The translations under genes and the position numbers were made by a program. The notes beneath the pieces were generated by a model, which made no database searches, was not told the DNA's origin, and saw only the letters and a list, made by a program, of their open reading frames with translations. Positions 33,204 to 53,508 of a DNA stretch of 54,970 nucleotides are shown here, piece after piece (the stretch's first letter is position 1; each line of letters begins with the position of its first letter). The DNA is from Clostridia bacterium (lineage in GTDB: Bacteria; Bacillota; Clostridia; Oscillospirales; Acutalibacteraceae), in contig JAFSYP010000052.1 of NCBI GenBank assembly GCA_017449935.1, forward strand, positions 1 to 54,970. The letters are read 5' to 3'.

Positions 33204-33228
33204 TCTGTCTGTCGTACGAAAACGCAAG

Positions 33229-33276
33229 CTCCCTTTCCCCGCGGCTGTCCCGCGAACGGAAAGGGAGTTTTGTTTT
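33229..33276. terminator. Terminator between the convergent kinase operons
   Basis: 10-bp perfect stem CTCCCTTTCC (33229-33238)/GGAAAGGGAG (33258-33267) followed by TTTTGTTTT. The minus-strand side also has a partial T-run. Confidence 0.88.
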
Positions 33277-33320
33277 GACGTGAACATATGATTCGGAAAC
33301 CGCGCGCGGCCGTTCCGGAA

Positions 33321-33533
33321 TCAAACCGGCCCGGGGCCGTTCCCATCCTGCGGCGCGTTCGTATTCGGGATCTCTTTCTCCTGCGCCTTTTTTGCGGCGC
33401 GTTTGCGGCGGACACGCACCAGAATGACGACCGCCAGCGCAAGAACAGCTGCGATCACGACGCAAAGGATCAAATCGGCAGCGCCGGCATATCTGTATCC
33501 GATCCCCGGCGCCGCGGCGTCCAGCAGCAGCAT
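33321..33533 (-). CDS. Small single-pass membrane protein
   Basis: 70 residues: a short outer N-terminus, one helix (about 18-42), then a basic tail (RVRRKRAAKKAQEKE) and a Pro/Asn-rich end inside. AAGGAG lies 8 nt before the ATG. It is the last gene of the kinase-like/PP2C/lipoprotein operon, 34 nt after its neighbour, which supports it as real. Function unknown; a small modulator of the phosphosignalling proteins is conceivable. Confidence 0.65.
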   Translation of the reverse strand: MLLLDAAAPGIGYRYAGAADLILCVVIAAVLALAVVILVRVRRKRAAKKAQEKEIPNTNAPQDGNGPGPV

Positions 33534-33567
33534 GTATACCACTCCTTTCGACTGTACGGCCTGCGGA

Positions 33568-34617: not shown

Positions 34618-34655
34618 TGATCTTTCCCCCTCGGCGCTGTCTGTTTCCGGCAGGA

Positions 34656-36026
34656 TCAGCTGTTTTCGGGTTCCTCGTACGGCTCCGGATCGTTGAATCC
34701 GGGCGTCGTCGCAGACGTCGACGGCGCTGTGGTCGGTTCGGTCGTCGGCGCTGTGGTCGGCGCGGTCGTCGGCGCCGTGGTCGGCTCAGTCTCCGGCGCG
34801 GGAGGCGCCTTTGTGGTGAACTCAGGCGCTTTGGTGGTGTATTTCCAGCTGGCCTCAAAGGGCTTCTGCGTCTGCCGCGGCGTCGTCTGCGCCGCCTGCG
34901 TCTGCCGCGGCGCCGTCGTGCCCTGCGTATAATAATAGCCTCCGCCGGAACCGGAACGCGTCTGCGCCTGCGTCGCGGGCGCCGCGTAGGAAGGCGCAGC
35001 CGTGGCCGCCTCGGTCGTGAACGCTTCCGTGAAGTACTCGGTCTGCGTGCTCAACTGCGTCACCGCCTCGGTCGCGCTCTCGGCGGGATCGTTATCGGTC
35101 CTGCCGCGGATCGCTTTGGAATACACGAACGCCGCCAGCGCCAGAACGAGGATGATCACCGCCGCGATCACGATCTTCGCGACCGTCGAGCCCTTATCCG
35201 GCTTCGCGGGCGCCCCGTCGGCGCCGTCCTCCTGCGGGATATAAGAAACGGAGAAGTCCGACGCGTCCGCGGCGGATGCGCCGTCCGGCACGACCGTGAC
35301 TGCGATCGCCGTATTGTTGTCCATCTCTTGCCCTTCGCCGGCCGCCTGCACGATCTTCGCCATGCCGTCCAGCCATGCCTTCGGAGAATCCGCCGTCTTG
35401 TACACGGCCAGCATCTCATCCTCCCGGATCAGCTCCCAAAAGCCGTCCGAGCACAGCAGGAACGCCGTCGGCTCCGTCAGGATCAGCTCGTCCGAAACAT
35501 CGAATTTCGGCTTTTCCCATTCGTTGCCCATCGCGCGCAGCAGCTTGTTGCGGTCGGGATGGAAGCGGATCTCCTCTTCCTTGATCTCCTTTTGCAGCGC
35601 AAGCATCTGCGGCACGCTGTGATCGACCGTGCGGTGCAGCCCGTTTCCGGCCATCCAATACAGCCGGGAATCGCCGACGTGCGCCCACATGGCGCGGTTG
35701 CCGTCGATCGCCAGCAGCACGCAGGTCGTCTTCATGCTGTTTGTTTCCTCATATTCCCGATGCAGCTCCATGACGCGATTCTGCGCGTTCCACATCGCAT
35801 CCGTGAGGAAATCCTTCAGCGGCGTCTGCGCGTCCCACTGATCGAAGCAGTCGGCTGCCGCCGTCACGGCCGCACGGCTGGCAAGCTCGCCGCGTCCGTG
35901 GCCGCCCAGACCGTCAGCCACCGCAAACAGGTATCTGCCGCGGCCGTCCTTTTTGATCACATATGCGTCTTCGTTGACTTCGCGCGAACCGACGCGCGAG
36001 ATCGCATCTGCCTGAATGTTCGTCAT
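34656..36026 (-). CDS. PP2C Ser/Thr phosphatase with transmembrane helix and outer Thr/Pro-rich tail
   Basis: 456 residues. The PP2C/Stp-type domain (1-about 245) has the metal-binding motifs SREVNEDAYVI, VADGLGGHGRGELAS, AHVGDSRLYW, LLCSDGFWE and EMDNNTAIAVTV, all intact. A helix (about 273-293) follows, then an extracytoplasmic tail of about 155 residues. The tail is rich in Thr, Ala, Pro and Gln, with a Tyr/Gly patch (SGGGYYYTQG), and carries no recognisable domain. Bacterial kinase-partner phosphatases are normally soluble, so tethering plus an outer tail is unusual. It reverses Ser/Thr phosphorylation, most simply that of the kinases encoded next to it. Downstream of the kinase-like gene by 75 bp, upstream of the lipoprotein gene by 38. 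Confidence 0.92.
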   Translation of the reverse strand: MTNIQADAISRVGSREVNEDAYVIKKDGRGRYLFAVADGLGGHGRGELASRAAVTAAADCFDQWDAQTPLKDFLTDAMWNAQNRVMELHREYEETNSMKTTCVLLAIDGNRAMWAHVGDSRLYWMAGNGLHRTVDHSVPQMLALQKEIKEEEIRFHPDRNKLLRAMGNEWEKPKFDVSDELILTEPTAFLLCSDGFWELIREDEMLAVYKTADSPKAWLDGMAKIVQAAGEGQEMDNNTAIAVTVVPDGASAADASDFSVSYIPQEDGADGAPAKPDKGSTVAKIVIAAVIILVLALAAFVYSKAIRGRTDNDPAESATEAVTQLSTQTEYFTEAFTTEAATAAPSYAAPATQAQTRSGSGGGYYYTQGTTAPRQTQAAQTTPRQTQKPFEASWKYTTKAPEFTTKAPPAPETEPTTAPTTAPTTAPTTEPTTAPSTSATTPGFNDPEPYEEPENS

Positions 36027-36101
36027 TGTATTTACCTCTCTTCATTCGTGGGTTTTGCGTTTACAGTTTTATATTCAAGATCCGATAAGAACCGGACCGC
36101 A

Positions 36102-40208: not shown

Positions 40209-42029
40209 TTATTTTTTGAAAATATCCGCAAACCCGGCCGGCCCGAAGCGCGTATACGCCCGGTCGCTGAGCCAGCGCATGATTTTACTAAAGCCGGTCA
40301 GCTCCTGCGGCTGCTCCGGCGTGTCCACGCCGATCTCGTACAGGACCTGCTGCGCGTACGCCATGACCTCGCCGTCGCGGGCGGGATCGTTGTGCGTGTC
40401 GGCGATCATCTCCTCGCACCGGCGCAGCGCGTCGCGCGCAAGCTCGACGTCGTGCGCCTTCGACGCGTCGTCCGCATTCTCGCGGATAAACGTGCGCAGC
40501 TTTTCCGGCACGCCGCGTATGGGCTTCAGGTCGCGGGCCTTGTTGAACTGCGGGTAGGTCTGCGCGCTGTCACGCACATTGCGCACCTTGCCGCACGCGA
40601 TATCGAACGCCAGGCGCAGCGCGGTGTTGTTGTACTCCAGACCGTGCTTCTGCTGATAGAAGCACCACGTCCGGTCGGGCGCGAACGACGTCGACAGATC
40701 GACCGAGCCGTCCGGCGAAACATATTCGCCCGTGCGGCCGAGCGACTTCCCGCACGGCGCGTATTCGGCGCCGGGGGCCGTCGAGGCGATCCCGATCACT
40801 TCGTCGGAATTGGTCGTTTCGGTCGACTTCATGAACGCGAAGTACGGGAAATCCGCCGCGCCGAAAGGCAGACCGTACCCGGCCAGGAAATAGAACTCCG
40901 TACCCTGCGCCTCCAGCGCGCTGAGCCGCTGCTTCAGCGTGCGCTGCGCCTCGTAATACCGGCGCGTTTCGGCGCGGATCGCCGCGTACTGCGGATCGGA
41001 CAGGTATTCGCGCTCGATCGCTTCGTACCGCTCGTACGGGATCAGCGCCAGCAGCGACGACGACTTGAAGATCAGCTCCTCGCAGAGCGCGTCCACAAGG
41101 TCGTTGATAAAAGCGCGCAGCTCCTGCTTCGGCACCATCCGAAGCGCCAGCGACAATATGTCGCATCCCGGCGTTTTGAGCAGCTCGCGCAGAATATCGC
41201 GGTACAGAAGCTGCGGCGAATCCGCGGCGAATTTCTTCTCGATCAGATCGGCAAACACGTCGCTGCCGTTCCATGCGCCGACGATGCTCACGACACGCTT
41301 GACGTCTCCTTTATCGCCGTATGCGTCGAGATACGCGCTGACGACCGCCGCGCCCATGCTCATGGGAGTCAGCACGACCTTGTCCTTGCCGGTCTGCTTC
41401 TTGACCGTCTGGATGAAATCATCCAGCTTCTGCGCGTCCGAATACAGCGATGAGAACGCCGGATAGTTGTAGCAGTAGAAATTCTCCGCGCCGACCGCTT
41501 CGACCATATCCTCACACGGGATCGAGCGGTATACGTTGTGCATCTCCTGCGCGTTGTATTCGCTGAACGGATACGGCCGGACGACAGGCTCCACGTCGGC
41601 GGGCAGCTCGCCGTTCGCGTCCGGGATGTGGTAATGGCAGACGGCCCGGACGATGGTCTTCAGATCGCGCTTCTGCACGCAGTTATGCTGTGTCAGGACC
41701 GAACGCAGCGTCTGACCGAGAATGCGCAGCGCGGCGAGTGCGTTGCGCGGCTCGCGCAGCGTAGAGGAATCGAGATAAAAGATATTGTATTCGACCAGAT
41801 CGTCTTCGTCATAGAACAGGTTGTAATGCTTGCGGTCGCTCTTCCGATTGACGCGCTGTTCGCCGTTCTCATCCAGAAGATGCGTCCACGTCTGACCGAT
41901 GCCGGTCACAAAAATGTTCACGTATTCGCAGTCGGCCGTCTGCGACGCGTTCGTCTGCGCGTGCGCGGGCAGAACGAACAGGGATACCGTAAAACAAACA
42001 GCCAGCAGGATCGCCGTAATCCGTTTCAT
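40209..42029 (-). CDS. Secreted alpha/beta-hydrolase, lecithin:cholesterol acyltransferase/lipase-like
   Basis: 606 residues with a signal peptide (1-24, ending AHA-QT). VNIFVTGIGQTW resembles the oxyanion-side start of a lipase fold, and LTPMSMGAAVVSAYLDAYG (about 235) carries a nucleophile elbow of the form M-S-M-G-A, where the first Gly of GxSxG is Met. An LCAT/esterase-like arrangement seems likely; the acid and His residues cannot be assigned confidently. The start at 42029 lies in an ATGA overlap with the upstream gene and has AAGGAG; the much longer in-frame extension is a shadow of that gene in another frame. Last gene of the six-gene operon. Probably acts on extracellular or envelope lipid. 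Confidence 0.72.
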   Translation of the reverse strand: MKRITAILLAVCFTVSLFVLPAHAQTNASQTADCEYVNIFVTGIGQTWTHLLDENGEQRVNRKSDRKHYNLFYDEDDLVEYNIFYLDSSTLREPRNALAALRILGQTLRSVLTQHNCVQKRDLKTIVRAVCHYHIPDANGELPADVEPVVRPYPFSEYNAQEMHNVYRSIPCEDMVEAVGAENFYCYNYPAFSSLYSDAQKLDDFIQTVKKQTGKDKVVLTPMSMGAAVVSAYLDAYGDKGDVKRVVSIVGAWNGSDVFADLIEKKFAADSPQLLYRDILRELLKTPGCDILSLALRMVPKQELRAFINDLVDALCEELIFKSSSLLALIPYERYEAIEREYLSDPQYAAIRAETRRYYEAQRTLKQRLSALEAQGTEFYFLAGYGLPFGAADFPYFAFMKSTETTNSDEVIGIASTAPGAEYAPCGKSLGRTGEYVSPDGSVDLSTSFAPDRTWCFYQQKHGLEYNNTALRLAFDIACGKVRNVRDSAQTYPQFNKARDLKPIRGVPEKLRTFIRENADDASKAHDVELARDALRRCEEMIADTHNDPARDGEVMAYAQQVLYEIGVDTPEQPQELTGFSKIMRWLSDRAYTRFGPAGFADIFKK

Positions 42030-42781
42030 TGTACATTCTCCTTTCCTGAACAGGTCGCAAAATATTCCTCGGACGGGACGCCGCGGATATAGCAGGTCGT
42101 GTACTGCACGGGGATCCCCGAACGGATCACCCAGATATCCGCCGCCAGACACAGCAGCACGAGCGCGAGATAAACGAATGCGCCGACGCCGATCGTCAGG
42201 CTTTCGACCGCTGCCGGATACGCCGCCGGCACGATCTTCGCCGCCGCGGGGAACGCGCAGAGCGCGCCTGCGGCCAAGAGCGCCATGCAGCCGTCCGCCG
42301 CCAGCAGGAACCGCTTGCCCTTTTTCGTGCAGCCGCCGACGATGCCGACCAGATGCGCGAGCAGACACAGCGCGGAAATCGTCAGCAGCGCCAGACTGAT
42401 CGCGGCGTATGCCTGCGGCAAAGCCATCGTTCTCGCGCGGAACGAGAGGATCCCGACGACGTCGGTCGCACGGAACGTGATCGTTTTGCCGGAGAATCCC
42501 TCCGTATACCGCAGCTTGGCCAGCGGCAGCATCAGCGCGCCGATCGGCAGAATGCTGCACACCAGACGCACGATCGCTTTCGGCGCGCCGATAAAGGACG
42601 CCTTGATGCGGTCGAGATGCGGCTGGAAATGCGCGTGGTCGATCTCGGCGGCGTCCGCATCCCGGCTCAGCCGCGCTTCCATGTCGTAGTAGGTCATATT
42701 CACACCGCAATGCGGACAGTCCGGGCGCCAGTTCCATAACCGCAGCGCCCCGCCGCATTTCGGACAAACCGTCTTTTTCAT
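42026..42781 (-). CDS. Zinc-ribbon multi-pass membrane protein, unknown function
   Basis: 251 residues. CPKCGGALRLWNWRPDCPHCG (about 5-25) is a zinc ribbon facing the cytoplasm. Four hydrophobic helices follow (about 70-90, 120-145, 160-185, 195-220). The start at 42781 has AAGGAGG; the stop overlaps the lipase-like start by ATGA. Proteins of this shape occur in clostridia without assigned function. Coupling to the secreted hydrolase suggests it assists its production or reports on the membrane state. Confidence 0.8.
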   Translation of the reverse strand: MKKTVCPKCGGALRLWNWRPDCPHCGVNMTYYDMEARLSRDADAAEIDHAHFQPHLDRIKASFIGAPKAIVRLVCSILPIGALMLPLAKLRYTEGFSGKTITFRATDVVGILSFRARTMALPQAYAAISLALLTISALCLLAHLVGIVGGCTKKGKRFLLAADGCMALLAAGALCAFPAAAKIVPAAYPAAVESLTIGVGAFVYLALVLLCLAADIWVIRSGIPVQYTTCYIRGVPSEEYFATCSGKENVQ

Positions 42782-42794
42782 CGTCTGCGCCTCC

Positions 42795-44273
42795 TTATGC
42801 GTCGGCTTCGGCGACCATCGCCTCGCGTCTTTGGTGCAGCTCGGCATACATCGTTTCTTTCGTCTTGGGATCGATATTGTAGAACAGCATCGGGATGATG
42901 CCCGGCAGCTTCGTCACGAAGGAAAACAGCGTCCAGCCGGCAAAGAGGATAAACTGCATCTGCTGCGGCTGCTCTCTGCCCTGCACCAGCGCGTATTGAT
43001 CGAAATGGAACCAGATCTTCAGCGAGTTGTTGAGCAGATCTCCGAAGATCTTGGACGTCTTTGTGGCCAGGTTCCTGGCGATTGCGATCATGGCCTCGCC
43101 GCGATAGCCGTTTTTCCACTCGCAGTAGTCCATGCATTCGTTCAGCATCTCCGCCGGCACGACGCTCCGCACGCCGTAGAAAACCATGAACGCCGATTCA
43201 TAGAGCGTCAGCGCGACCGCCATGGGCACGACGCTCTGGTACATCCTGCCCTTTCTGCCGGGAAGCATCCCGAACGCGAAGACAGGCAGCGAGAGCACTT
43301 CCATGTTGTACTTGCCGAGGATATACAGCGTCTTGTCCGAGAAGCGGCGGTGGAACCACGGCACGAGCGCGTAGCTGATGGGATTGATAAAGAAGCCGGG
43401 GATGCCGCAGATGAGCTTCAGCGTGCTGTTTTTCAGCACGTACAGCAGATAGTCGTCCTTTCCCGCGCCGATCGAAAAACCGTTGAGCACCTCGGACAGC
43501 GTGAGCATCAGGATCGGCCGGTTGCGCAGCACGGTGTTGATGGACTGTCGGATGGTCGGCTTTTCGGTCGACTGCACGACGCGTTCCCTGCAGATGTAGA
43601 AGAACCAGAACGCGCCGGCGCCCGCCACGATCACGGTGAACAGTCCGAAGCCTTTGTACAGCTTCGGCAGCGCCGAGGGCTTCCACCTCATCAAAGGATC
43701 GCGGATCACCGTAAAGAGCTGACTGGGCAGCTTCTCGCCCAGATACCCGGACGCAAAATTCGCGATGCGGATCAGCCGTTCGCGGTCGAATGGGAACGGC
43801 GTGATCGTCGCCTGCAGGCCGGCCTTGGCCATGCCCTGGAACGTGCCGATCGCTTCAGAGACGATCTGAAGAAACAGGTACATGACGAATTTTCCGATCG
43901 AACTCATGCCCGCAGCGGTGCTGATGGTCGGCATCAGCCAGTAAAGGATCGAAAGGATCGTGCCGGGGATCGCCAGGAAGAGCAGAAACGGTTTGAATTT
44001 TCCCCAGCGCGTGCGCGTGCGGTCGACGATCGTCCCGATGAACAGATCGTTCACGACGTCCCAGACGCCGTTGATCGCGCTCGCGAGCCGGATGAACCCC
44101 AGATCCAGATGGAAAATATCGCGGATAAAGCTGTCCCGCTCGCCGTCTATGTTGTAGCTCTGCGACATATCGTAGACGATATAGGCCATCGTTTCCTTCG
44201 TACCGACGTAGCGGCGGTACCGCGGATCGCTGCGGTCTATCTGCGCGGGATGCTTTTGGTGTTTGTCAGACAT
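42795..44273 (-). CDS. MFS transporter of the glycoside-pentoside-hexuronide:cation symporter (GPH) type
   Basis: 492 residues with about twelve predicted helices. The segment after the second helix, GTIVDRTRTRWGKFKPFLL (about 81-99), is the GPH/MelB hallmark (R-x-G-K-(F/W)-(R/K)-P-(F/L)). The N-terminus is long and charged, and a central loop (about 225-250) is basic. Members import sugars or glycosides with Na+ or H+; some act on lipids, as in MFSD2A. GPH is the best call but substrate is unknown; the lipid-related neighbours make a lipid or lysolipid worth testing. AGGAGGG precedes the ATG. Gaps are 37 and 13 nt on either side. Confidence 0.85.
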   Translation of the reverse strand: MSDKHQKHPAQIDRSDPRYRRYVGTKETMAYIVYDMSQSYNIDGERDSFIRDIFHLDLGFIRLASAINGVWDVVNDLFIGTIVDRTRTRWGKFKPFLLFLAIPGTILSILYWLMPTISTAAGMSSIGKFVMYLFLQIVSEAIGTFQGMAKAGLQATITPFPFDRERLIRIANFASGYLGEKLPSQLFTVIRDPLMRWKPSALPKLYKGFGLFTVIVAGAGAFWFFYICRERVVQSTEKPTIRQSINTVLRNRPILMLTLSEVLNGFSIGAGKDDYLLYVLKNSTLKLICGIPGFFINPISYALVPWFHRRFSDKTLYILGKYNMEVLSLPVFAFGMLPGRKGRMYQSVVPMAVALTLYESAFMVFYGVRSVVPAEMLNECMDYCEWKNGYRGEAMIAIARNLATKTSKIFGDLLNNSLKIWFHFDQYALVQGREQPQQMQFILFAGWTLFSFVTKLPGIIPMLFYNIDPKTKETMYAELHQRREAMVAEADA

Positions 44274-44310: not shown

Positions 44311-45213
44311 TCACGCCTTGAAATCGCTGTACCGGATCTCGGTTATGCCGCTGGCGTTGCCGCCCACGCCGTAAATATCCGACAGGTCGAACGCAACGTT
44401 GAACTGCACGTTTATCTCCCGCAGCGTTCCGTCCGGCGACACGCGCGCGGTGAGCACGGCGTTGTCGTACCGCTCGTCGACCTTCGCGGTCGGCGCATAC
44501 GACTCCAGCGCATGGTACACGTTCTGCGCCGTCTTGTGGTCCCAGTACGCCTTGTCCTTGTCGCCGACGGCGATCCCTGTCCTGTTCAGCGGCGCGTCGC
44601 AGGTGTTCACATCCCGGGACATAAAGCTGCTGCCGGACCGTATGTTCAGCGCGATCTGCACGTCGCCGTCCTTGTTCGCCGCGCACGTCGCACGCTCGAC
44701 GTCCGTATCGCGCAGCGAGGCGCGCTGCAGATAATGGTCGTAGTCCTCTGTCGTCGACGTGATTTCCGTCTGCGTGCCGTCGTTGACGCCCATAAATTCC
44801 AGGACCTTCTTTTTGAACGGCTCCAGGATCGGCGACGCGTGGTAATCTTTATCACTGACCGTGGATTTGCGCCACTTGGTAAAGGACGCCTTTTGCGAAA
44901 CGGCGCGGTTGACGGCGTCGTTGTACAGCCGGATGATCTGCGCTTTGTCCGTCGGCAGCGCGAGCTCGCTGCGCGGTTCGGCTTCTTGCGTCTGCGGCTC
45001 GGCCGTTTCCGATTGCGGCTCAGTCGTTTCCGACTGCGGCTCGGCCGTTTCCGGCGGCAGATCGGCCGGCGCGGTCCGAGCCTCTTCCGTCACGGTCTCC
45101 TGCGCGCTCGTCTGTTCCGGCGCCGCAGGCAGGTTCCCGGCGGCGCACGAGGCAAGCGACACGATCAGCAAAACGCCCAGCAGGATCTGACCGCATTTCT
45201 TTATGTTCGGCAT
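44311..45213 (-). CDS. Possible independently translated lipoprotein inside the Lgt frame
   Basis: 300 residues from the internal ATG at 45213. The Shine-Dalgarno (GGGAGAGAG), basic signal start, hydrophobic core and lipobox LASC make it a complete lipoprotein gene on its own. The C-terminal domain (about 85-300) is not recognised. Whether the Lgt part reads through, terminates by another route, or the fusion is processed cannot be decided from the sequence. Confidence 0.55.
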   Translation of the reverse strand: MPNIKKCGQILLGVLLIVSLASCAAGNLPAAPEQTSAQETVTEEARTAPADLPPETAEPQSETTEPQSETAEPQTQEAEPRSELALPTDKAQIIRLYNDAVNRAVSQKASFTKWRKSTVSDKDYHASPILEPFKKKVLEFMGVNDGTQTEITSTTEDYDHYLQRASLRDTDVERATCAANKDGDVQIALNIRSGSSFMSRDVNTCDAPLNRTGIAVGDKDKAYWDHKTAQNVYHALESYAPTAKVDERYDNAVLTARVSPDGTLREINVQFNVAFDLSDIYGVGGNASGITEIRYSDFKA

Positions 45214-46014
45214 GGTACTCTCTCCCTTCCCCGTTTGTCGGTGCGAACGCGCGGTTCGCTGCCTGCGCCGGATGACCGCGGCGGCGCACCATGCGAGGCA
45301 TACGCCGGCGGAGATCCACTGCGAGGTCGACAGGATGTAGACGCCCCGATGTGCGTCGCCTCTGAAAAACTCTAAAACGAACCGTGACGCCGCATAGCAG
45401 ACGGCATATGTCGGGAACAGTCTGCCGCGGTTCTTCTCCGTCAGCGGCACGCGTGCGAGCAGCGCCGCCAGCAGCAGGTTGACGCCTGCCTCCAGAAGCT
45501 GAACGGGGATGCGCGGCGTCGCGCCGGGCGCGGAGAATATGTGCGCGGCGGCACAGTCCGATACTATTCCGTAGCAGCAGCCCGCCAGATAACAGCCGAG
45601 CCTGCCGAAGGTCATGAACAGCGGTACGCCGGGCGTGAACCAATCCGCAAAATCGGCGAAGCGGATGCAAAACAGCCTGCATCCCGCAAGCGCGCCGCAC
45701 AGTCCGCCGAGCAGTCCGCCGTAAAAAACGCCTGCGCCCGGCAGCAGTGTCTTCCAATACGCCCACGTCCAGAAGTACGGTTCGCCGCCGTCCGTGAGGA
45801 TATTGCCGAAAAGCTGCAGGAGCTTCGCGCCGAACACGGCGCCGGGCAGGATCATCAGTGCGGCGAAGAAGGCAAGCTCCTTCGGCGCGCGGCATTTGCC
45901 CGTTCGGCAGCGCCGGCGCGCCAGCGCGAACGCCGCCGTAATGCCCGCCGCGGCACAGAGAAAATAGGTCGAGATCCCTATGCCGAAAAGATTGACCGTC
46001 GGGTACATGCGCAC
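44311..46014 (-). CDS. Lgt-like prolipoprotein diacylglyceryl transferase fused in frame to a lipoprotein
   Basis: 567-residue continuous frame. Residues 1-255 are a short Lgt-family membrane domain. It has FMTFGRLGCYLAGCCYG (134-149, the clostridial form of the GRxGN signature) and the C-terminal YAASRFVLEFFRGD...LSTSQWIS block, with about six helices. Residue 268 is a Met that begins a typical lipoprotein: basic start, hydrophobic segment, lipobox LASC (Cys 289), a Thr/Glu/Pro/Gln-repeat stalk (about 300-345) and a globular domain (about 350-567). An excellent GGGAGAGAG ribosome site sits before that internal ATG (45213), and no stop codon separates the two. Either one polypeptide is made or translation also starts internally. 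Lgt lipidates lipoprotein cysteines. Next genes are BACON-like lipoproteins upstream and a transporter downstream. Confidence 0.82.
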   Translation of the reverse strand: MRMYPTVNLFGIGISTYFLCAAAGITAAFALARRRCRTGKCRAPKELAFFAALMILPGAVFGAKLLQLFGNILTDGGEPYFWTWAYWKTLLPGAGVFYGGLLGGLCGALAGCRLFCIRFADFADWFTPGVPLFMTFGRLGCYLAGCCYGIVSDCAAAHIFSAPGATPRIPVQLLEAGVNLLLAALLARVPLTEKNRGRLFPTYAVCYAASRFVLEFFRGDAHRGVYILSTSQWISAGVCLAWCAAAVIRRRQRTARSHRQTGKGESTMPNIKKCGQILLGVLLIVSLASCAAGNLPAAPEQTSAQETVTEEARTAPADLPPETAEPQSETTEPQSETAEPQTQEAEPRSELALPTDKAQIIRLYNDAVNRAVSQKASFTKWRKSTVSDKDYHASPILEPFKKKVLEFMGVNDGTQTEITSTTEDYDHYLQRASLRDTDVERATCAANKDGDVQIALNIRSGSSFMSRDVNTCDAPLNRTGIAVGDKDKAYWDHKTAQNVYHALESYAPTAKVDERYDNAVLTARVSPDGTLREINVQFNVAFDLSDIYGVGGNASGITEIRYSDFKA

Positions 46015-46045: not shown

Positions 46046-46696
46046 TTATTTTTTCTGCGTGATGACGAACGTCTTCGTTTCGTCCTTGTTGGAAACGATC
46101 ACCTTGGCGGTCCGGTTTCTGCCTTTGTCATTTTCCCCGACAGTCACTGTGAAGCCGGCGTCGCTGCGCGTGATGGAATACCACATGGCGAGCTTGTTGG
46201 ATTTCTCCACGCTCCAGCCCGTCTTGGAGGATACGGTCACGGTCGTCTCTCCGCCGCTTTGGGGGAATTCCTGTTCATAACTGCTCAGATTCAGCGGACT
46301 CTTTTCCTCCGTCTGCCGAACGGTCAGCGTCGTGCCGGCGACTGTGAGACCGGCTTCGTCCGTCATCCCGTAAACCATGATCTGTTTGGTGCGCGGAACG
46401 TCGGACGGTTTCACCGTAACGAGCAGGCCGTCCCCGCTTTTCGTGACGGACACCCAGCTGTCCGACGTGCCCGCGTGGTCCTCGATCCTCCAGAAAGAGC
46501 AGTCCGACGTTACGGGGATGGCCTTTGAGCCGCCGCTGAAGCCGAAATAGCATTCGTACGTTTTCTTATCCTCAACCACGAAAACGGGGCCGCTGAGTCT
46601 GACGTAACAGCCCGTTCCGACGAGCAGCAGCACACAGACCGAGAGCACGGCAAGCGCCGCCGCAAAGCGTTTTTTTACTGTAATATTTGTGTTCAT
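46046..46696 (-). CDS. BACON-like lipoprotein, paralogue 2
   Basis: 216 residues. Signal peptide with lipobox VGTGC (Cys near 30). The mature part consists of two beta-sandwich modules with BACON-like spacing: Gly-Gly (SGG) and aromatic-rich strands, Trp positions (FWRIED, WSVEKS) and a closing VIVSNKDETKTFVITQKK. BACON modules bind carbohydrate or mucin in Bacteroidota; in Firmicutes they are less expected. Same length as its neighbour and clearly homologous along the whole sequence. A 50-nt gap separates the two; GAAGGGAG precedes the ATG. Confidence 0.75.
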   Translation of the reverse strand: MNTNITVKKRFAAALAVLSVCVLLLVGTGCYVRLSGPVFVVEDKKTYECYFGFSGGSKAIPVTSDCSFWRIEDHAGTSDSWVSVTKSGDGLLVTVKPSDVPRTKQIMVYGMTDEAGLTVAGTTLTVRQTEEKSPLNLSSYEQEFPQSGGETTVTVSSKTGWSVEKSNKLAMWYSITRSDAGFTVTVGENDKGRNRTAKVIVSNKDETKTFVITQKK

Positions 46697-46746: not shown

Positions 46747-47397
46747 TTATTCCTGCGTGAAGCGGAACGTCTTGGCGTCGTCCTTGTTGGAGAAGACCAG
46801 CTCGCCGGTCCGGCTCTCCCCTGTTTCGTTCTCTTTGACGTTCACCATAAAGCTGTGGTCGGTCCGCGTCACGGTGAACCAACCGCGGTCTTCGGTCGTG
46901 TTCTCCATCCGCCAGCCTGTTGCGGAATTCACGAGAACGACCACTCTTCCGCCTGCCTGCGGGAAGGTCCCCTCATAGCTGCTCAGCGTCAGCGGACACG
47001 CGCCGTCGAGCTGCCGCACGGTCAGCGTCGCTTCGGCAAGCGTGACTCCGTCCTCCTGCTTCATCGCGCGCAGACGGATCTTCTGCGAATGCGGTTTGTC
47101 GGACGGCTTGACCCGGACGACAAGCGCGTTTCCTCCGTCCCTGTACACGGAGATCCACTTGTCGTTAGATTGACCCGGATCGTCGAATTCCCAGTAAGTA
47201 CAGTCTGAAACGACGTTAATGACTTCCCGGCCGCCTGAGGAATCGAAATAGCATTCGTACGACGCCATGTCTTCGATCACGAACACAGGTCCCTCGAGCG
47301 CGACAAAGCAGCCGGTTCCGACAAACAGCAGCACGCACGCCGACAGCACGGCAAGCGCAGCCGCAAATCGTTTTTTCAACGCAACGTTCGTTTTCAT
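46747..47397 (-). CDS. BACON-like lipoprotein, paralogue 1
   Basis: 216 residues. The signal peptide and lipobox VGTGCF are nearly identical to the downstream paralogue, followed by the same two-module body (SSGGREVINVVSDCTYWEF; SNKDDAKTFRFTQE). Divergence is spread over the surface positions while Trp/Gly landmarks persist, suggesting an old tandem duplication with different ligands. The start at 47397 follows AAGGAG; a slightly longer in-frame start lies upstream without a ribosome site. First gene of the six-gene operon and the direct target of the palindrome-linked promoter. Confidence 0.78.
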   Translation of the reverse strand: MKTNVALKKRFAAALAVLSACVLLFVGTGCFVALEGPVFVIEDMASYECYFDSSGGREVINVVSDCTYWEFDDPGQSNDKWISVYRDGGNALVVRVKPSDKPHSQKIRLRAMKQEDGVTLAEATLTVRQLDGACPLTLSSYEGTFPQAGGRVVVLVNSATGWRMENTTEDRGWFTVTRTDHSFMVNVKENETGESRTGELVFSNKDDAKTFRFTQE

Positions 47398-47449: not shown

Positions 47450-47503
47450 AGTATAATTCGCCCGATTCAAAACCGCGTGACCGACGTGTGACAATTCTGT
47501 CAC
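47450..47503 (-). promoter_or_regulatory. Activator-type promoter: palindrome plus -10, for the BACON/Lgt/transporter operon
   Basis: TGTGACA-N4-TGTCACA (47487-47504; arms 47488-47493 and 47498-47503), a 32-bp gap (47456-47487), then TATACT as -10 on the minus strand (47450-47455). The place for a -35 reads ACGCGG, far from TTGACA, so an activator bound at about -53 is likely. The same layout recurs at 53455-53508. Confidence 0.7.
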
Positions 47504-47587
47504 AAGAGAAGTTTTTCGTTCCGTGTGAGAAACCACGGGCGCTTGATCCGCTTTTCCTTCCTTGTCAATGCGTCCCTTCACTTATTA

Positions 47588-47637
47588 TAAAAAAAGCGCG
47601 GGGAGTTGCCGTATTACGGACAACTCTCCCTGTGCGT
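47588..47637 (-). terminator. Rho-independent terminator downstream of the giant LRR gene and remnant
   Basis: On the minus strand, a hairpin of GGGAGAGTTGTCCGTA/TACGGCAACTCCCC type is followed by seven T residues. Confidence 0.8.
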
Positions 47638-47670
47638 TTAATATATATCTTGTCTTATCTATATCTTTAT

Positions 47671-47968
47671 CTATTTATGTCGGTAGGATACCCTGTCGTT
47701 TTCCCTGTCATCTTTCCCGTAATTTTTTCTCTTGTTTTTCTTATCATCTTCCCTGTCGTTTTCCGATTTTGTTCCCGGCGACGCTGCATTTGCCTTCCCT
47801 TGGGGCGCGGGCGATCCGTTCCTCCGCCGCGGCAGGTCGTTTTGTTTGCAGGGCAAGCATGCCGGTCATCCCAAAGGCAGAAAATTGTTCAAGCATATTC
47901 AGCGCGAGTTGTCTTTGGCGGTCGTTCCAATCCGTAATGACCGTTCTTTTCCCAGATCTCGGATTCAC
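47671..47968 (-). pseudogene. Possible frameshifted remnant of a small unknown gene
   Basis: A minus-strand frame with natural-looking composition (DWNDRQRQLALNMLEQFSAFGM) ends in a basic tail. In another frame a Lys/Asp/Arg-rich tail (KNKRKNYGKDDRENDR) continues to 47671. One shift would join the two into a protein with a low-complexity charged end as in some mobile-element proteins. Composition only; no family match recognised and no clear ribosome site. Confidence 0.25.
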
Positions 47969-48043
47969 CCCGGAAATAAGTTTCCGCTTAAGTTGTGGAC
48001 ATTGCCCCCAGGGGAAGTCTGTTCCTTTCGCCGTAAAATGCCA

Positions 48044-48202
48044 TGAATGATTACGGGCGGCCGTCCCTGCGGGCGGGCGGGAGGTTCTCGCACGTTTTTC
48101 CGGTCGGGCCGACGGGACAGGCAGAACGGCCGCCGCAGTTGGGAAGACCCGTCCGCGGCGGCCGACTGTTAATTTATTTACTTACACGGGATGGCTCCGG
48201 CG
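48044..48202. other. Palindromic GC-rich spacer after the giant LRR gene
   Basis: Contains a GGGCGG-type REP-like fragment near 48050-48080 and a 10-bp inverted repeat CGGCCGCCGC/GCGGCGGCCG (about 48127-48165) that may act as terminator for the minus-strand gene ending at 48203. T-run weak. Confidence 0.45.
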
Positions 48203-51200
48203 TTACCAATCCGGTCCGAAATCTTCGCTGTCCGGACCGGGATCGCACGGGATCGGGCCGTCGTCTTCCGCCTCGTCCTCCGGCAGCTCGATGTCCCAGC
48301 CGCCGGCGATGTATCGGGCGAGATAGATGGAATCCTTGTTGTTGATCAGGCCGTCCTTGTAGAAGTCCATGCATACCGGGAACAGATCCTCCTTATTGCC
48401 GTCGACAAGGAACCGGCGGATCAGCACGACGTCCTTGAGCGTCAGCTCGGCGTCGAGATCGACGTCGCCGTACATGCGCTGGATCATGACGTTTCCGCTT
48501 CGCACGGCGATCGGCTTATTCTGAAGCGGCACATTGAACGTGGACTCGGAGTCAATGGACAGCTCGATCGAGGTCGCGCCGAGCGCCGCTTCTCTGTTCA
48601 CCGAGAAGATCAGCTTGACCAGCAGGCCGTCCTGCGTGTAGTCCTCCCTGGCCAGCTCGTCGGCCATATACAGGATATACGGGATCTGATCGCGATCGCC
48701 GCCCTCAATGACCGCTTCGTGGCGGGAGAAGATCTCGCCGTTTTCGATTCTTTCCAGCGTCAGCACGTCCGGATCGTACCGGATAAACAGACGTGTGGAA
48801 ATGATCCCCGGATTGTTTCTCAGGTAAATATCCACGTCCGTGATGCTGCCGGGCGTTCCCTTGGTCGGCTTGACCTCCAGCAGCGGATCGGCGTACAGAA
48901 CAGGTTCTGTCCGGACGTCGCCGCATTTCGTGCAGCGCTCCTGCCGGTAGCCGTCCTCTTCCACGGTCGGTTCCTTCTCCTCGAGGATCTCATAGTCGTG
49001 CTCGCACGTCGGGACCGGCGGTTTCGGCGGCAGCGTCTGTTCCGCGAACCTGACCTCGCCGCTCTGCGTCGTCACGCTCTGACCGTACTGCGCAACGCTG
49101 TCGAATATCTCAAAAGCGAATCCGGCTGACGAACCGTGCAGCGCCGGCGTCACGCCGTCCGTGCGCATACCGGCCGCACGCGTTACGGCAAAGATCGTGT
49201 CGAAGTCGGCCGACGTCTTGTACCAGTCCTGCGGCGCGCCGACGGCGCTGACGCTGTTGTTATACGCCGCGTCCGGCCGCGCCTCCAGCGTGAAGGTGCA
49301 CAGCAGATCGTTCTGTTCCGTCAGCTTCTGCGTGACCGTGCCGAACACGTTCGGGCTGATCTGAAGATGCAGGATCTTGAACTGACGCATCAGACCGGGA
49401 ATACGGTACGCTTCAGGGTACTGTCCCTCGGGGCTGTCGACGGTAAAGCATTCGATCGTATAGCTGTCGTCGATCTCTTCGGCGACGTCCTGCGTCGAGA
49501 TCATCTGACCGGGGATCAGCGAAGTCGCTTTGTCCACTTCGGAAGGACGTCCCGAATCATACGAGAACCGGCGGCCGTTCTTGTCGACCAGATAGAACCG
49601 TGTCGCGTCGAAAACGATCGGGATGTCCGCCGCGGACAGGTGGAAATTGGTACGCATCCGGACCGCGAAGGTGATGCGGTCGCCTGCGTTGACCGCGACT
49701 GCGTTCGAGCCGTCTGTCGGGGCGCCGTTGACCTTGATCGGAACGACGCGCACGTCGAGCTCGGCCTTGGACTCGTCGCGCCAGACGAATCCGTCCCCCG
49801 TCGAGTACCGCAGTCCTGTTTCGTTTTTCGCGTCCAGAAGCGCTCTGAGCGCCTGCGTGGCGGCAAGAACCGTCACTTTGGTCAGTTCGCCCCGGAGCGC
49901 ATAGCCGTTCGCACAGGCGTCCGCGATGAACGCGTTCGCATCCGTCAGCGGGCTGTTCAGCGCAGCGGCCACGCGCAGGATCGCTTCGTCCTTATAGAAA
50001 TACAGGTTTTCCGGGTCGGGCAGTCTGCCGATCGCGTCGTACAGCGCGTCCAGCTCTTCGTCGGTCGGTGCCAGCGTCGGATCGACGATCTCGATCCTGC
50101 CGTAGACCGTCAGATCTTCTGCGCCGGCCGCCGCGCCCGTGAAGGGTTTGCCGTCGGCCGTGAACCAGCCGAGGAAGAACCAGTCGTCTCCCTGCGGCGT
50201 CAGCGGCAGCACAATCTGTGCGCCGAACAGGACGCCGAGCTGCTCATAGGTCGTATAGCCGTTCCCGTTAGGCAGCAGGAACGAAACGGTGATCTGCACG
50301 CGGTCAAGGATCACGTCCAGCGTCGTGCCGGATTCCGCCAGCGTGCCGGAGAGCATGGAGTCCGCTTCGTTGAGCGTCCAGCCTGCCGAAAGGTATTCCT
50401 TCGCGTCAACGCTGACCGTTCTGCCCACGACGCCCCTGTGCGTGTAAAACTCCGGCGCTCCGTAGACGCCCGATGTGTCCATACGGATCACGCGGACGGT
50501 ATAGTCCGCGAACGAGACCGGACGCGTCTGCTCTTCGCCGCAGCGTCTGCAAGTCCTGATCTCCGTATTTTCCAGGAGCTGCCACGCGTCGTAGTCATGG
50601 CCGAGCGCAGGCTGCTCCGGATCGTATTCGGTGAAAGAATCGCCGCATCTCCGGCAGGCGTACACGATTTTGGCGCCCTCGGTACAGGTCGCCGTATAGA
50701 ACGCCACGTCGTACGCGTGTCCCGTCGCCTCGATGCTCTCCGATCTTTTGTGTCTCGGATTGTTCTCACAGACGTATTCCGTCACCCCGTCCTGCGTGCA
50801 GCTTGCGGGCACGGAATTCGCGACCGTCCAGCGATGTCCTGTCTTCGGCAGGATCTCCTTCTCGCGCAGGCCGCAGTCGGAACAGTAGCGGTTGCGGACG
50901 CCGTCCTCCTCACATGTCGGATACGTCACGTCCTCGATGAAATCATGTCCCGTCGGCGGGATCGTTTCCGTTACGGTATATCCGCATGGACGGCAGCGGG
51001 AGATCTTCTGTCCGCTCTGCAGGCAGGAAGCCGGGATGATCTCGGTCTGTATCTGGTGGGGCATATCTTCCTCGTCGCCGCAGCGCGTGCAGATGCGGCA
51101 GTGGTATTCGTTGTCGTCTTCCATCGGCTGCCAGTCGCCGAAATCGTGTCCGAGACGGGGCACGGGCTTGGAATTGACGTAGCCGCAGACGTCGCACGTA

Positions 51201-53317
51201 TAGGTCTTCTCGCCGTCGCGCGTGCAGGTCGCCGCGATCTCATGGGTGATCTTGAGATCGTGCCGTCCGCTGATCGTTTCGCCGCAGCGCGTGCAGTACA
51301 TCGTATGCGTCGTCTCCGTCCATTCCGTCAGGAAGGCCGGACAGTCATGGCCGAGCGGGTCCAGCTCTTCCGTTTTGCTGTCTGCGCAGAGCCGGCATCT
51401 GTACCATGCCGTGCCGGGCTCGGTACAGGTCGGATCTGTACGCGCCGTTTCTTCCCATTCATGCTCGAACTTGGGCGTGAATTCCCGTTCGACGTACGCG
51501 CAGCGCGAACAGCGCGTCGTGACGACGCCTTGCTCGTAACAGGTCGGCTCGACGACCGTAACCGACAGAGCATGACCGAGCGCCGGGATCGTTTCGTCAT
51601 AAGAGGCGCCGCATTCGCCGCAGGTGAATGTGCGCGTACCCGCTTCGGTACAGGTCGCTGCCTTTGTGACCGTCGACGTATAGTTGTGCGCATACCGGAA
51701 CGTCTTTTTACAGTTGTCGCAGACGCCCCGGTGCTGATCGCCCGAAGCCGTCCAACTCGAAAAGCTGTGTCCGGTCGGCTCGATCGTGAGCTTTTTGACG
51801 TGACCGCAGACGCTGCAGATGTATTCCGTGTAGCCCGCGTTCGTGCAGTCCGCTTCTTTGACGTTCGTCTGCACATAAGCGTGCGCGCCGCACGTCGGCT
51901 CATGCTCGCAGACGGAGAACCCGATCTCATGCTCTGCCGCATAGCGGCTCGCTTCGCAGTCCGCGGAATCGGAGCAGATCACGGCGGTCGTGTTTTCAAA
52001 CGCGCGGCTGCCGATGCTCGTTACGGTCGACGGGATGTGCACCGTCTCGAGCGCTTTGAGATTCGCAAACGCGGTCAGATCGACCGTCAGCACGCCGCTG
52101 CGCAGAATGACGGCATGTAAGTTTTTACAGCCGGAGAACAGATGCGACAGGTCGTCGACGCTGCCGGGGATCACGATGCTGTCCAGCGCGGTGCCGGAGA
52201 ACGCGCTCCATTCGATCGTCTTGATCGAATTCGGCAGTGTGATCTTCTCAAGCGGAGCATTGATGAAGCAGTTGCTGCCGATGCTTTGAAGGCCGTTCGC
52301 GATCGTGACGTTCGTCAGCTTTTTCGCGTAAGCAAACGCGCCTTCGCCCAGTGTGCGTACAGACGACGGGATCGTGACGGAGGTCAGATACCACGCGTTG
52401 GAAAAAGCGCGCGCCTCGACCGTCTGCACGGTGTCCGGAACGGCGTACGCGGTGCGCGCATTCGCCGACGGATATGCCAGGATCGTCGTCACGTTTTTGT
52501 CGGTCAGAACGCCGTCCGGGGACGCGTAGTTCCCGTTCTGCGCGTCAACCTCAAACGCCGTCAAAGCGATGGTTGCCTCAAACGACGTATGATCGAGGCT
52601 CTGCACGGCGGCGGGGATGCGGACAGTCGATACGTGGCTGCCGCTGAACGCTTTTGCGCCGATCGTCTGTACGCCGCTGCCGAGCGTGATGCTCTGTACA
52701 TTCGTGCAGAGATAGAACGCGCCTTTGCTGATCGTCTGCACGTTATCGGGAATGACGATAGACTCGAGCGTTGTGCACATGGCAAAAGCGTTTTCGTCGA
52801 TGGTCCGGACCGTATCCGGGATCACATAATCCGGCTCGATCTTCTGCGGCGCACGGATCAGCGTTGTGCCGTCGATCGAAAACAGAACGCCGTACGCGTC
52901 CTTCGTCAGGTATGCGCTGCCCTCGTCGACGTGGAACGTCGGATCGTTCGCGAAGCCTATGTTGCGTCCGCTCAGATCCGTCAGCGACGCAGGCAGATAA
53001 ACGTCCTGCAGATTATGATAGTGTGAAAAGCTGAACGTACCGAGCTTCGTAATGCCTTCGGTGATCTCGATGACACGGACGCTGTCCATGTCCGAATACG
53101 ACGCGCCCTGTCCGACGATCACCCCGGGGGTGAAGGCCGAGAGCGTACCCGATCCCGTAAAGGAAAGAAGTCCGACGCGCTTGTTCAGCATCCAGTTGAT
53201 CCCGCTGATCGTGCCGCTGTATATGTCCGCCGCCGCAACGCCCGCAAAGGGCAGCGTGCCGCACATCAACACGGCCGCCAAAAATACGGCAAGCAATTTT
53301 TGCATTGTCTTTTTCAT
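48203..53317 (-). CDS. Giant secreted LRR / Cys-array / cohesin-like / dockerin surface protein
   Basis: 1704 residues with a signal peptide (1-29). Domains in order: BspA-type LRR_5 repeats (about 100-455, LTSVTIPSSVRTLGEGAFAYA type); a run of about twelve repeats (about 470-936) each built as ATCTExGxxxYxCxxCGxxxxxxxxxxGH, a possible zinc-ribbon-like array; a beta-rich repeat region (about 940-1100); a first cohesin-like segment (about 1195-1400); one isolated Cys repeat (about 1440-1475); a second cohesin-like domain (about 1476-1610, LEVKPTKGTPG...TRLFIRYDPDVLTLERI); and a type I dockerin (about 1616-1680, GDVDLDAELTLKDVVLIRRFL). The C-terminus is acidic. The start at 53317 overlaps a 29-codon leader ORF by ATGA and has GAGGAGGG. 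Probably displayed on or assembled at the cell surface; ligand unknown. Confidence 0.9.
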   Translation of the reverse strand: MKKTMQKLLAVFLAAVLMCGTLPFAGVAAADIYSGTISGINWMLNKRVGLLSFTGSGTLSAFTPGVIVGQGASYSDMDSVRVIEITEGITKLGTFSFSHYHNLQDVYLPASLTDLSGRNIGFANDPTFHVDEGSAYLTKDAYGVLFSIDGTTLIRAPQKIEPDYVIPDTVRTIDENAFAMCTTLESIVIPDNVQTISKGAFYLCTNVQSITLGSGVQTIGAKAFSGSHVSTVRIPAAVQSLDHTSFEATIALTAFEVDAQNGNYASPDGVLTDKNVTTILAYPSANARTAYAVPDTVQTVEARAFSNAWYLTSVTIPSSVRTLGEGAFAYAKKLTNVTIANGLQSIGSNCFINAPLEKITLPNSIKTIEWSAFSGTALDSIVIPGSVDDLSHLFSGCKNLHAVILRSGVLTVDLTAFANLKALETVHIPSTVTSIGSRAFENTTAVICSDSADCEASRYAAEHEIGFSVCEHEPTCGAHAYVQTNVKEADCTNAGYTEYICSVCGHVKKLTIEPTGHSFSSWTASGDQHRGVCDNCKKTFRYAHNYTSTVTKAATCTEAGTRTFTCGECGASYDETIPALGHALSVTVVEPTCYEQGVVTTRCSRCAYVEREFTPKFEHEWEETARTDPTCTEPGTAWYRCRLCADSKTEELDPLGHDCPAFLTEWTETTHTMYCTRCGETISGRHDLKITHEIAATCTRDGEKTYTCDVCGYVNSKPVPRLGHDFGDWQPMEDDNEYHCRICTRCGDEEDMPHQIQTEIIPASCLQSGQKISRCRPCGYTVTETIPPTGHDFIEDVTYPTCEEDGVRNRYCSDCGLREKEILPKTGHRWTVANSVPASCTQDGVTEYVCENNPRHKRSESIEATGHAYDVAFYTATCTEGAKIVYACRRCGDSFTEYDPEQPALGHDYDAWQLLENTEIRTCRRCGEEQTRPVSFADYTVRVIRMDTSGVYGAPEFYTHRGVVGRTVSVDAKEYLSAGWTLNEADSMLSGTLAESGTTLDVILDRVQITVSFLLPNGNGYTTYEQLGVLFGAQIVLPLTPQGDDWFFLGWFTADGKPFTGAAAGAEDLTVYGRIEIVDPTLAPTDEELDALYDAIGRLPDPENLYFYKDEAILRVAAALNSPLTDANAFIADACANGYALRGELTKVTVLAATQALRALLDAKNETGLRYSTGDGFVWRDESKAELDVRVVPIKVNGAPTDGSNAVAVNAGDRITFAVRMRTNFHLSAADIPIVFDATRFYLVDKNGRRFSYDSGRPSEVDKATSLIPGQMISTQDVAEEIDDSYTIECFTVDSPEGQYPEAYRIPGLMRQFKILHLQISPNVFGTVTQKLTEQNDLLCTFTLEARPDAAYNNSVSAVGAPQDWYKTSADFDTIFAVTRAAGMRTDGVTPALHGSSAGFAFEIFDSVAQYGQSVTTQSGEVRFAEQTLPPKPPVPTCEHDYEILEEKEPTVEEDGYRQERCTKCGDVRTEPVLYADPLLEVKPTKGTPGSITDVDIYLRNNPGIISTRLFIRYDPDVLTLERIENGEIFSRHEAVIEGGDRDQIPYILYMADELAREDYTQDGLLVKLIFSVNREAALGATSIELSIDSESTFNVPLQNKPIAVRSGNVMIQRMYGDVDLDAELTLKDVVLIRRFLVDGNKEDLFPVCMDFYKDGLINNKDSIYLARYIAGGWDIELPEDEAEDDGPIPCDPGPDSEDFGPDW

Positions 53318-53403
53318 AAATAACCCTCCTCATTCTGTCGGTTGTTCGTCTGTCCGAATCGCTGCAGCGCCATGCCGTACGGACGCTGCGTGAAATGAAA
53401 CAT
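53314..53403 (-). CDS. 29-codon leader ORF translationally coupled to the giant LRR gene
   Basis: Starts ATG at 53403 directly behind a very strong AAGGAGGAGGAGG and encodes 29 residues (starts MFHFTQRPYG, ends EEGYL), with the stop TGA at 53314-53316 inside the ATGA that starts the LRR gene. No signal peptide. The 3' part of the ORF contains the LRR ribosome site. It could serve coupling or attenuation rather than make a functional peptide. Too short for family comparison by eye. Confidence 0.6.
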   Translation of the reverse strand: MFHFTQRPYGMALQRFGQTNNRQNEEGYL

Positions 53404-53454
53404 ACGGCCTCCTCCTCCTTTCCGATGCGTCGTTATCCTCGGTTTACAATTGTA

Positions 53455-53508
53455 ATTCTACATTTGCGTTTTAAAAACACGATAACAAGTCCGTGACAGT
53501 TTTGTCAC
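53455..53508 (-). promoter_or_regulatory. Activator-type promoter: palindrome plus -10, for the LRR gene
   Basis: GTGACA (53493-53498), N4, TGTCAC (53503-53508), a 32-bp gap (53461-53492), then TAGAAT on the minus strand (53455-53460). The -35 position reads ATCGTG. The layout equals that at 47450-47503 to the base, with different spacer sequence apart from a shared TTTT stretch. Confidence 0.7.

Follow-up and report, generated by a model that had tools for sequence, protein, structure and literature searches.

Introduction

BceB, the permease of the Bce-type modules, has ten helices and one large loop, and BceR promoters are said (Fang et al. 2017) to hold a main site, a linker and a secondary site. 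In Streptococcus pneumoniae, the response regulator (RR) and histidine kinase (HK) of VncRS are encoded beside the FtsX-type ATP-binding cassette (ABC) genes vex123. Bce-like systems sense peptides via their transporter (PMC10858260), and the Bce consensus is given as TNACA-N4-TGTAA (PMC9020739). The predicted GraR box of Staphylococcus is AAGTGACA-N4-TGTCATTT (PMC3128592). vex123 is under VncRS control, and a 2024 article states that the binding motif of VncRS is unknown (PMC11034029). The PHO box of E. coli consists of two 11-nt direct repeats with CTGTCAT cores (PMC4415409). In this study, we analyzed a stretch of 54,970 nucleotides from a Clostridia bacterium (contig JAFSYP010000052.1), called the window here, in which two transcription units for surface proteins are each preceded by the palindrome GTGACA-N4-TGTCAC. 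We consider it likely that both sites are operators of an OmpR/PhoB-type RR belonging to a two-component system (TCS) that is encoded with an FtsX-type ABC transporter.

Results

The palindromes belong to a predicted four-block operator

The palindromes are located at 47488-47503 (site 1, GTGACAATTCTGTCAC) and 53493-53508 (site 2, GTGACAGTTTTGTCAC). On the minus strand, each is followed exactly 32 bp downstream by its own -10 hexamer, TATACT at 47455-47450 and TAGAAT at 53460-53455. A sequence-only reading of the window had reported both palindromes and the identical gaps, and both proved exact. The genome-wide search that it proposed was performed on the source genome (G000, 2.95 Mb, 87% complete). 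Four exact sites were found, all with a -10 in register, against 0.13 expected from a base-composition model of 2.95 Mb (P(>=4) ~1e-5), and the reversed-pattern control gave 0 matches. Among 19 relatives, G003, a sister species of the same genus, had 5 exact sites, G005 and G013 had 1 each and the others 0; the reversed control matched once each in G005, G012 and G014. A -10 in register is missing at the single matches in G005:C153 and G013:C6, which were dropped from the site set. In the remaining exact sites (4/4 in G000 and 5/5 in G003), TA(T/G/A)A(A/C)T stands at a constant offset. When up to two mismatches were allowed, the window count was 3 against 1.4 expected, and 17 of 100 shuffles reached 3. 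Since this relaxed count is unremarkable, the signal resides in the exact sites and their register.

We trained a 54-bp profile on 17 sites, including both window sites. It scored 55.5 at site 1 and 45.4 at site 2, and the next-best window position scored 6.1. The maximum in ten shuffled windows (one strand each) was 5.9. The leave-one-out scores were 48.1 for site 1 and 30.6 for site 2. Mere chance was ruled out by the excess of exact sites, the 0 control matches in G000, and the profile scores compared with shuffles.

The full operator is GTGAC-N6-GTCAC-N6-GTCAC-N6-GTCAC-N10-TATACT, and its spacing is kept in all nine exact sites of G000 and G003. Alignment of 17 promoters (7 from G000, 9 from G003 and 1 from G009) showed four 5-bp blocks at 11-bp spacing, each with a nearly invariant T at position 2 and A at position 4. 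The middle base is G in block 1 (15/17) and C in blocks 2, 3, and 4 (15/17, 15/17, and 13/17). Because GTGAC and GTCAC differ only in this middle base, the palindrome can be recognized as the inverted upstream pair of a longer array. As read from the sequence, it is the upstream inverted half of a predicted bipartite operator, the downstream half of which is a head-to-tail GTCAC-N6-GTCAC located 10 bp before the -10. We agree with the sequence-only reading that neither promoter has a recognizable -35; two further half-sites, which it overlooked, are found there, and the -35 is absent because blocks 3 and 4 occupy its region. Its proposal of an activator geometry centered near -53 stands as far as the conserved, activator-type geometry is concerned, and the single palindrome centered at -53 is replaced by four half-sites.

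Both window operators are on the minus strand. In operator 1, the inverted half-site GTGAC (block 1, 47499..47503) has the invariant T and A and the middle G of 15/17 promoters, and forms the palindrome with GTCAC of block 2 (47488..47492). Block 3, GTCAC (47477..47481), follows at 11 bp from block 2, and block 4 is a degenerate TTGAA (47466..47470), 10 bp from the predicted -10 TATACT (47450..47455) of the BACON/Lgt/MFS/hydrolase operon. Operator 2 comprises GTGAC (block 1, 53504..53508), GTCAC (block 2, 53493..53497), the degenerate blocks GTTAT (block 3, 53482..53486) and TTTAA (block 4, 53471..53475), and the predicted -10 TAGAAT (53455..53460) of the leucine-rich repeat (LRR) gene. In the tandem pair, site 1 matches 7/10 and site 2 matches 5/10 consensus letters. 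In a few genomes of other genera, the linker between the two pairs is by visual reading not 6 bp but 7 bp (G109, G094, G062, and G064), 16 bp (G075) or 17 bp (G038). Linkers of 6-7 and 16-17 bp are about one helical turn apart, which suggests that two separate dimers would bind on one face of the DNA.

The sequence-only reading had thought of a CRP/FNR-like regulator. A CRP/FNR-, Rex- or GntR-type dimer could bind the lone palindrome, which is perfect in 9 sites and has arms like TGTGA/TCACA, and the downstream GTCAC repeats would then be incidental. However, blocks 3-4 and the N10 spacing are kept in 17 promoters of the genus and in 60 promoters of other loci, and the two window sites have an 8-bp gap between their GTGA and TCAC arms, compared to 6 bp in TGTGA-N6-TCACA. 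The regulator linked to the operator in other Clostridia (see below) is of the OmpR/PhoB type, not CRP/FNR. We regard a dimer on a lone palindrome as very unlikely, and the CRP/FNR reading was rejected because of the linked regulator and the array of four half-sites spaced 11 bp apart.

Two sister species have a common set of boxed genes

Model R1, a profile of the nine exact sites, found further in-register sites. With models trained on G000 and G003 sites, the profile search gave 7 in-register sites in G000, 9 in G003 and 1 strong site in G009. The G000 sites are the two in the window and those at C25, C95, C1, C81, and C5; the G003 sites are at C43, C58, C59, C110, C159, C33, C111 (twice), and C55. 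The site at C43 is at a contig edge and its downstream gene is unreadable. The boxed genes encode BACON proteins, Lgt, MFS_2 transporters, lipase-like hydrolases, and LRR/cohesin proteins, and further ones encode a large secreted protein, a DUF6273 protein, a lipoprotein, and an ABC exporter pair. When signal sequences were judged by eye, the products leaned to exported or membrane proteins, as the sequence-only reading had expected. Neither the 612-aa C1 protein nor the C110 lipoprotein had a Pfam match.

Homologous genes link the two sets. All 8 G003 units having a readable gene have homologous genes in a boxed G000 unit, and 6 of 7 G000 units have them in boxed G003 units. The exception is C5 of G000, with only a 27-30% match between its ABC domains and the C159 ATPase. 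The window six-gene operon corresponds to three separately boxed G003 units (C110, C111a, and C159). The expected conservation upstream of homologous genes was thus found as boxed counterparts common to G000 and G003. For two target genes, ten orthologues or paralogues from other places in the genus or genome were examined, and none had a box; their best upstream score was 2.6 and their best score anywhere was at most 7.9, compared to 45-62 for the regulon sites. The best upstream box score of the G001:C182 homologue was -17.0.

The layout of blocks 2-4 resembles the E. coli PHO box, and the boxes could be PHO boxes of a phosphate regulon read by a true PhoB/PhoP regulator. However, no phosphate gene was found among the boxed genes scanned with Pfam, the C159 RR reached 134.8 bits against a PhoB equivalog cut-off of 296.2, and block 1 is inverted, unlike in a PHO box. 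A phosphate regulon is therefore highly improbable, and a pure PHO box was rejected on the lack of phosphate genes among the scanned boxed genes and on the sub-cut-off RR score.

Partial or out-of-register matches of R1, or of the models R2 and R3 described below, were not counted (for example G002:C25, G006, G009:C1, G003:C149, and G009:C55). At G009:C1:19061 (L086, L042) there is a short tandem array with an 11-bp unit, TGTCACGGGTC; the half-sites are phased and a -10 in register is absent. The sequence at G003:C149:2925 (L085, L054) nearly repeats the box region of G003:C43, except that its palindrome is shorter by one base, and may be an operator duplicate in decay. The box at G002:C15:76805 (L038, L087) precedes genes for an FGGY carbohydrate kinase and a cohesin-domain protein.

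The operator is found beside related modules in other Clostridia

Model R2 was applied with stricter filters to 98 genomes of the order. At E<=1e-3, it matched 16 genomes including G000, with 16 matches outside G000 in 15 genomes. In the 15 of these matches that were parsed by script, an RR and an HK were upstream in 14 and an ABC gene was downstream in 14; the sixteenth, a short locus, has a similar arrangement by eye. The matches in G107 and G030 are partial, and G107 lacks a -10 in register.

The genome contigs were also scanned with an RR protein alignment, which gave at least 568 relatives, of which the best 80 were kept. Among these 80 loci, a kinase followed by an ABC gene was found in 67, and a box scoring at least 20 lay between them in 63 of the 67. 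The linker was 6 bp in 60 of the 63 boxed loci. The best of 80 shuffled loci scored 19.8, and the threshold of 20 was chosen to lie just above it; among 400 shuffled loci it was reached anywhere by 2. The other 13 loci had no recognized order of kinase then ABC and were excluded; L260, which scores 29.9, is among them. Model R3 was built from 49 of the 60 linker-6 boxes after near-identical ones were dropped, and includes no known site of this genus. In 38 genomes of the order, R3 gave 1-2 matches in each of 10 genomes besides G000. The R2 and R3 operator counts in other genomes of the order are lower bounds. When the regulators were placed in a joint tree, those of G003, G009, and G000 formed a single clade (0.878) that groups with the 80 family RRs (0.945), and the other included RRs of the genus fall outside.

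A candidate regulator is encoded with an ABC transporter

The box at C159 of G003 has the top leave-one-out score (57.2) and heads an operon encoding a hydrolase, an RR, an HK, a LolD-type ATPase, and an FtsX permease. The RR, HK, ABC ATPase, and FtsX permease are encoded together at both G003:C159 and G000:C97. The regulators at C159 and C97 match PF00072 and PF00486, a receiver and a C-terminal winged helix, and are therefore of the OmpR/PhoB type. By crude hydropathy, the C159 kinase has helices at ~9-35 and ~47-73 and almost no extracellular domain. When the RR and HK were named with NCBIfam, no equivalog among the matches listed exceeded its cut-off. Among 11 genomes of the genus, the RR clade C97/C159/C200 is confined to G000, G003, and G009 (support 1.0), and strong sites occur in the same three genomes (G003 9, G009 1, and G000 7). 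Apart from a second clade (see below), the other RR clades common to G000 and G003 extend into genomes lacking strong sites. This co-distribution of RR clade and sites is suggestive, though not unique to this clade. The C97 regulator is, with somewhat better than even confidence, the reader of the G000 boxes; otherwise the reader would be one missing from the 87%-complete assembly.

Of 197 sampled genomes of the order, the other 196 contained no relative of the C159 permease at E<=1e-20. The regulator family, in contrast, is widespread. Crude hydropathy of seven permeases gave 7-8 helices. The five permeases from other genera have two loops of 224-277 aa; those of C159 and C97 have one loop, which measures 369 aa in C159 and 356 aa in C97. 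In this lineage, the FtsX permeases (L018:5898-8255 and L056:651-3029) are without the first large extracytoplasmic loop and the second is longer, possibly with a changed ligand.

A WalR-like RR that occurs throughout the genus, together with a kinase and an HtrA-like protease, was considered as another reader, in which case the boxed set would be a branch of a genus-common envelope regulon. This regulator has an RR-HK-HtrA protease operon (seen in the G000, G003, and G009 loci), and its own promoter shows, in G000, G003, G004, G005, and G009, TTTAC/GTCAT/ATTAC/TTTAA-like blocks followed by N10 and TATAMT in the same register, with TTAAC as the first block in G005. Its helix, RTVDVHIKRLREKL, resembles that of PhoB. 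However, the WalR-like RR is present in 10 of 11 genus genomes and strong sites in three, its own boxes score 22-31 compared to 45-62 for regulon sites, and in 63/67 loci the operator adjoins another RR family. We consider a WalR-like reader improbable. The WalR-like boxes are found at G000:C101:12311, G003:C63:38407, G004:C5, G005:C137, and G009:C80 (L063, L070, L147, L145, and L075).

A second RR clade (C24/C25b/C57) could read the boxes as well, since it has members in G000 and G003, while the placed RRs of the other nine genus genomes include none. However, no box was found near the three genes examined (best score -3.3), the clade is absent from G009, which has a strong site, and no link of this clade to a box was found elsewhere, whereas the C159 family is linked in 63/67 loci. 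There is little chance that this clade is the reader. Its genes are at G000:C24:62249 (L307), G000:C25:14930 (L305), and G003:C57:23271 (L306), beside a kinase and, by eye, a RelA/SpoT-like gene.

Several observations weigh against the regulator encoded with the FtsX-type transporter as the common reader of the boxes. Among 63 RRs of the genus, the second clade (C24 and C25b of G000, C57 of G003) is also limited to G000 and G003. The recognition helix differs between C97 (PERVRQTIHRVRKEI) and C159 (DNTLSVHIKRLRESI), and the contigs carrying the C97 and C200 modules yielded no box. G009 has the regulator and one strong site only, and its peptidase homologue is unboxed; G002:C15 has a fair site (39.5) in a genome without a C97/C159/C200-type regulator, and was not counted in the regulon. 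The helix DNTLTVYIKRLR is present in 71 of the best 80 of at least 568 family RRs, a frequency that is partly a product of the scan because one of its two peptide patterns is that helix. The R2 and 80-locus surveys overlap, as the boxes of L189, L223, and L226 are those of G096, G021, and G101. At E<=0.1, R3, which is not fully independent because its sites were chosen with the genus profile, recovers 9/9 G003 sites and the G009 site, and only 2/7 G000 sites, namely C95 and window site 1, the latter in its upstream half only; window site 2 is not recovered, and G006 and G002 give further, partial matches. Finally, G000 operators match 9.1/10 letters in the inverted pair, compared to 9.3 in G003, and their promoter-proximal pair is looser, 6.7/10 letters compared to 9.2 (p=0.0009). 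We read the loose tandem pair of G000 as regulator-operator co-divergence; possible alternatives are decay of the operators and a regulator that the assembly lacks.

Genes under the two window operators

All genes under the two operators are on the minus strand. Operator 1 precedes a gene, called by script, for a BACON-domain, lipoprotein-like protein (46747..47397, Pfam PF13004). It is followed by a second BACON protein, 52% identical to the first (46046..46696), and by Lgt, prolipoprotein diacylglyceryl transferase, with an extra part (44311..46008, PF01790). The extra part resembles the separately boxed, stand-alone C110 lipoprotein of G003 (L017:7379-8287), with 42% identity over 211 aa. 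By this likeness, the window Lgt appears to be a fusion of a lipoprotein-modifying enzyme with a putative client. Next come an MFS_2 transporter (42795..44273; boxed G003 counterpart in C111a, 53%), a protein with a zinc-ribbon-like start, its Pfam match being below cut-off (42026..42781; counterpart in G003 unit C111a, 40%), and an alpha/beta-hydrolase-like, lipase-like protein with Pfam matches below cut-off and export judged by eye (40209..42029). The G003 homologue of this hydrolase (47%) is the first gene of the regulator operon.

Operator 2 precedes the gene for a 1704-aa protein with BspA-type LRRs and a cohesin domain (48203..53317; boxed G003 counterpart C111b, 39%). This giant protein may combine in one chain the cohesin and a dockerin-like C-terminus; Dockerin_1 was just below cut-off, and in the G003 homologue only (L082:3088-7950). 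The sequence-only reading had proposed co-regulation of the BACON/Lgt/transporter/lipase operon and the giant LRR gene. The two are jointly marked by operators in register, which is consistent with such co-regulation. Elsewhere in the window, at 31215-38969, a PP2C-like phosphatase gene lies between the genes of two kinase-like proteins; Pfam shows a Ser/Thr kinase and InlB-type repeats in one of these, and the other kinase, like the phosphatase, was assigned by eye.

Discussion

The two window sites probably represent a real, conserved operator of a known regulator kind, with a bipartite form and a lineage-specific regulon of mostly envelope proteins. We observed the anatomy of the operator, its placement beside modules elsewhere, a boxed gene set in two species, a box at the G003 regulator operon, and co-distribution with an RR clade. 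From these we infer binding, activation, autoregulation, and the signal. One envelope-sensing system probably controls the boxed surface and secreted proteins together. Envelope stress or a peptide would alter the ABC transporter, and the altered transporter would activate the short two-helix kinase. The phosphorylated regulator would then bind the upstream inverted pair first and the promoter-proximal pair next, and the bound regulator would recruit RNA polymerase, much like PhoB.

In other Clostridia, this putative sensor module has the operator directly upstream of its own transporter gene. Here, a multiplied 54-bp operator may have rewired it into a master switch for surface remodeling, with the recognition helix and the promoter-proximal half co-diverging in the two sister species; we give this account slightly less than an even chance. 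The direction of change would be a gain of operators here rather than a loss elsewhere. If the account is true, regulator-operator co-evolution would be visible across a whole regulon. In a literature search limited to open-licence papers, we found no description of this four-block operator or of such a regulon.

These results suggest an operator code, letter by letter, for an RR family of many Clostridia, together with Enterococcus and Paenibacillus loci. Within one lineage, they connect cohesin/LRR, BACON, lipase-like, and transporter genes with a single putative envelope sensor. They also offer a comparative case of regulon expansion, with 1-2 operators per other genome of the order (R2 and R3; lower bounds) compared to 7 and 9 here. 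A misreading is corrected as well: a palindrome can conceal a phased four-block array, because GTGAC and GTCAC differ by a single, middle base.

Among known systems, the PHO boxes of PhoB share with blocks 2-4 of the 17 genus promoters the 11-nt head-to-tail repeats with TGTCA cores, and the promoter-proximal half may work like a PHO box. CRP/FNR boxes have similar half-site letters and differ from the operator in its 8-bp center, its four blocks, and its linked regulator. The operator type is not wholly new when compared with the predicted GraR box as given in PMC3128592.

The Bce-type modules, BceRS-BceAB of Bacillus subtilis and GraSR-VraFG of Staphylococcus aureus, are alike in having a TCS encoded with an FtsX-type ABC transporter, a two-helix kinase with hardly any outside domain, and an inverted-repeat operator with an N4 center. 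The Bce-type placement of the operator before an ABC gene is present in 63/67 other loci; in G003 the operator stands before the hydrolase at the operon head, and none was seen at G000:C97. In contrast to the Bce type, the second element here consists of two tandem GTCAC blocks at a constant distance of 10 bp from the -10, the tested permeases have 7-8 helices, with 8 and two large loops predicted for the family, and not a BceB-like layout, the RR helix is DNTLTVYIKRLR compared to NTLTVNVTRLRKKL in G107, the one Bce-like locus of the order, and the targets are surface genes. No BceB was found among the PDB sequence matches of the permease at E<=1. The system may thus work like a Bce-type module, and strict Bce-type membership is withheld, as the permease topology differs. 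VncRS-Vex may be the nearest named relative of the TCS-ABC module described here.

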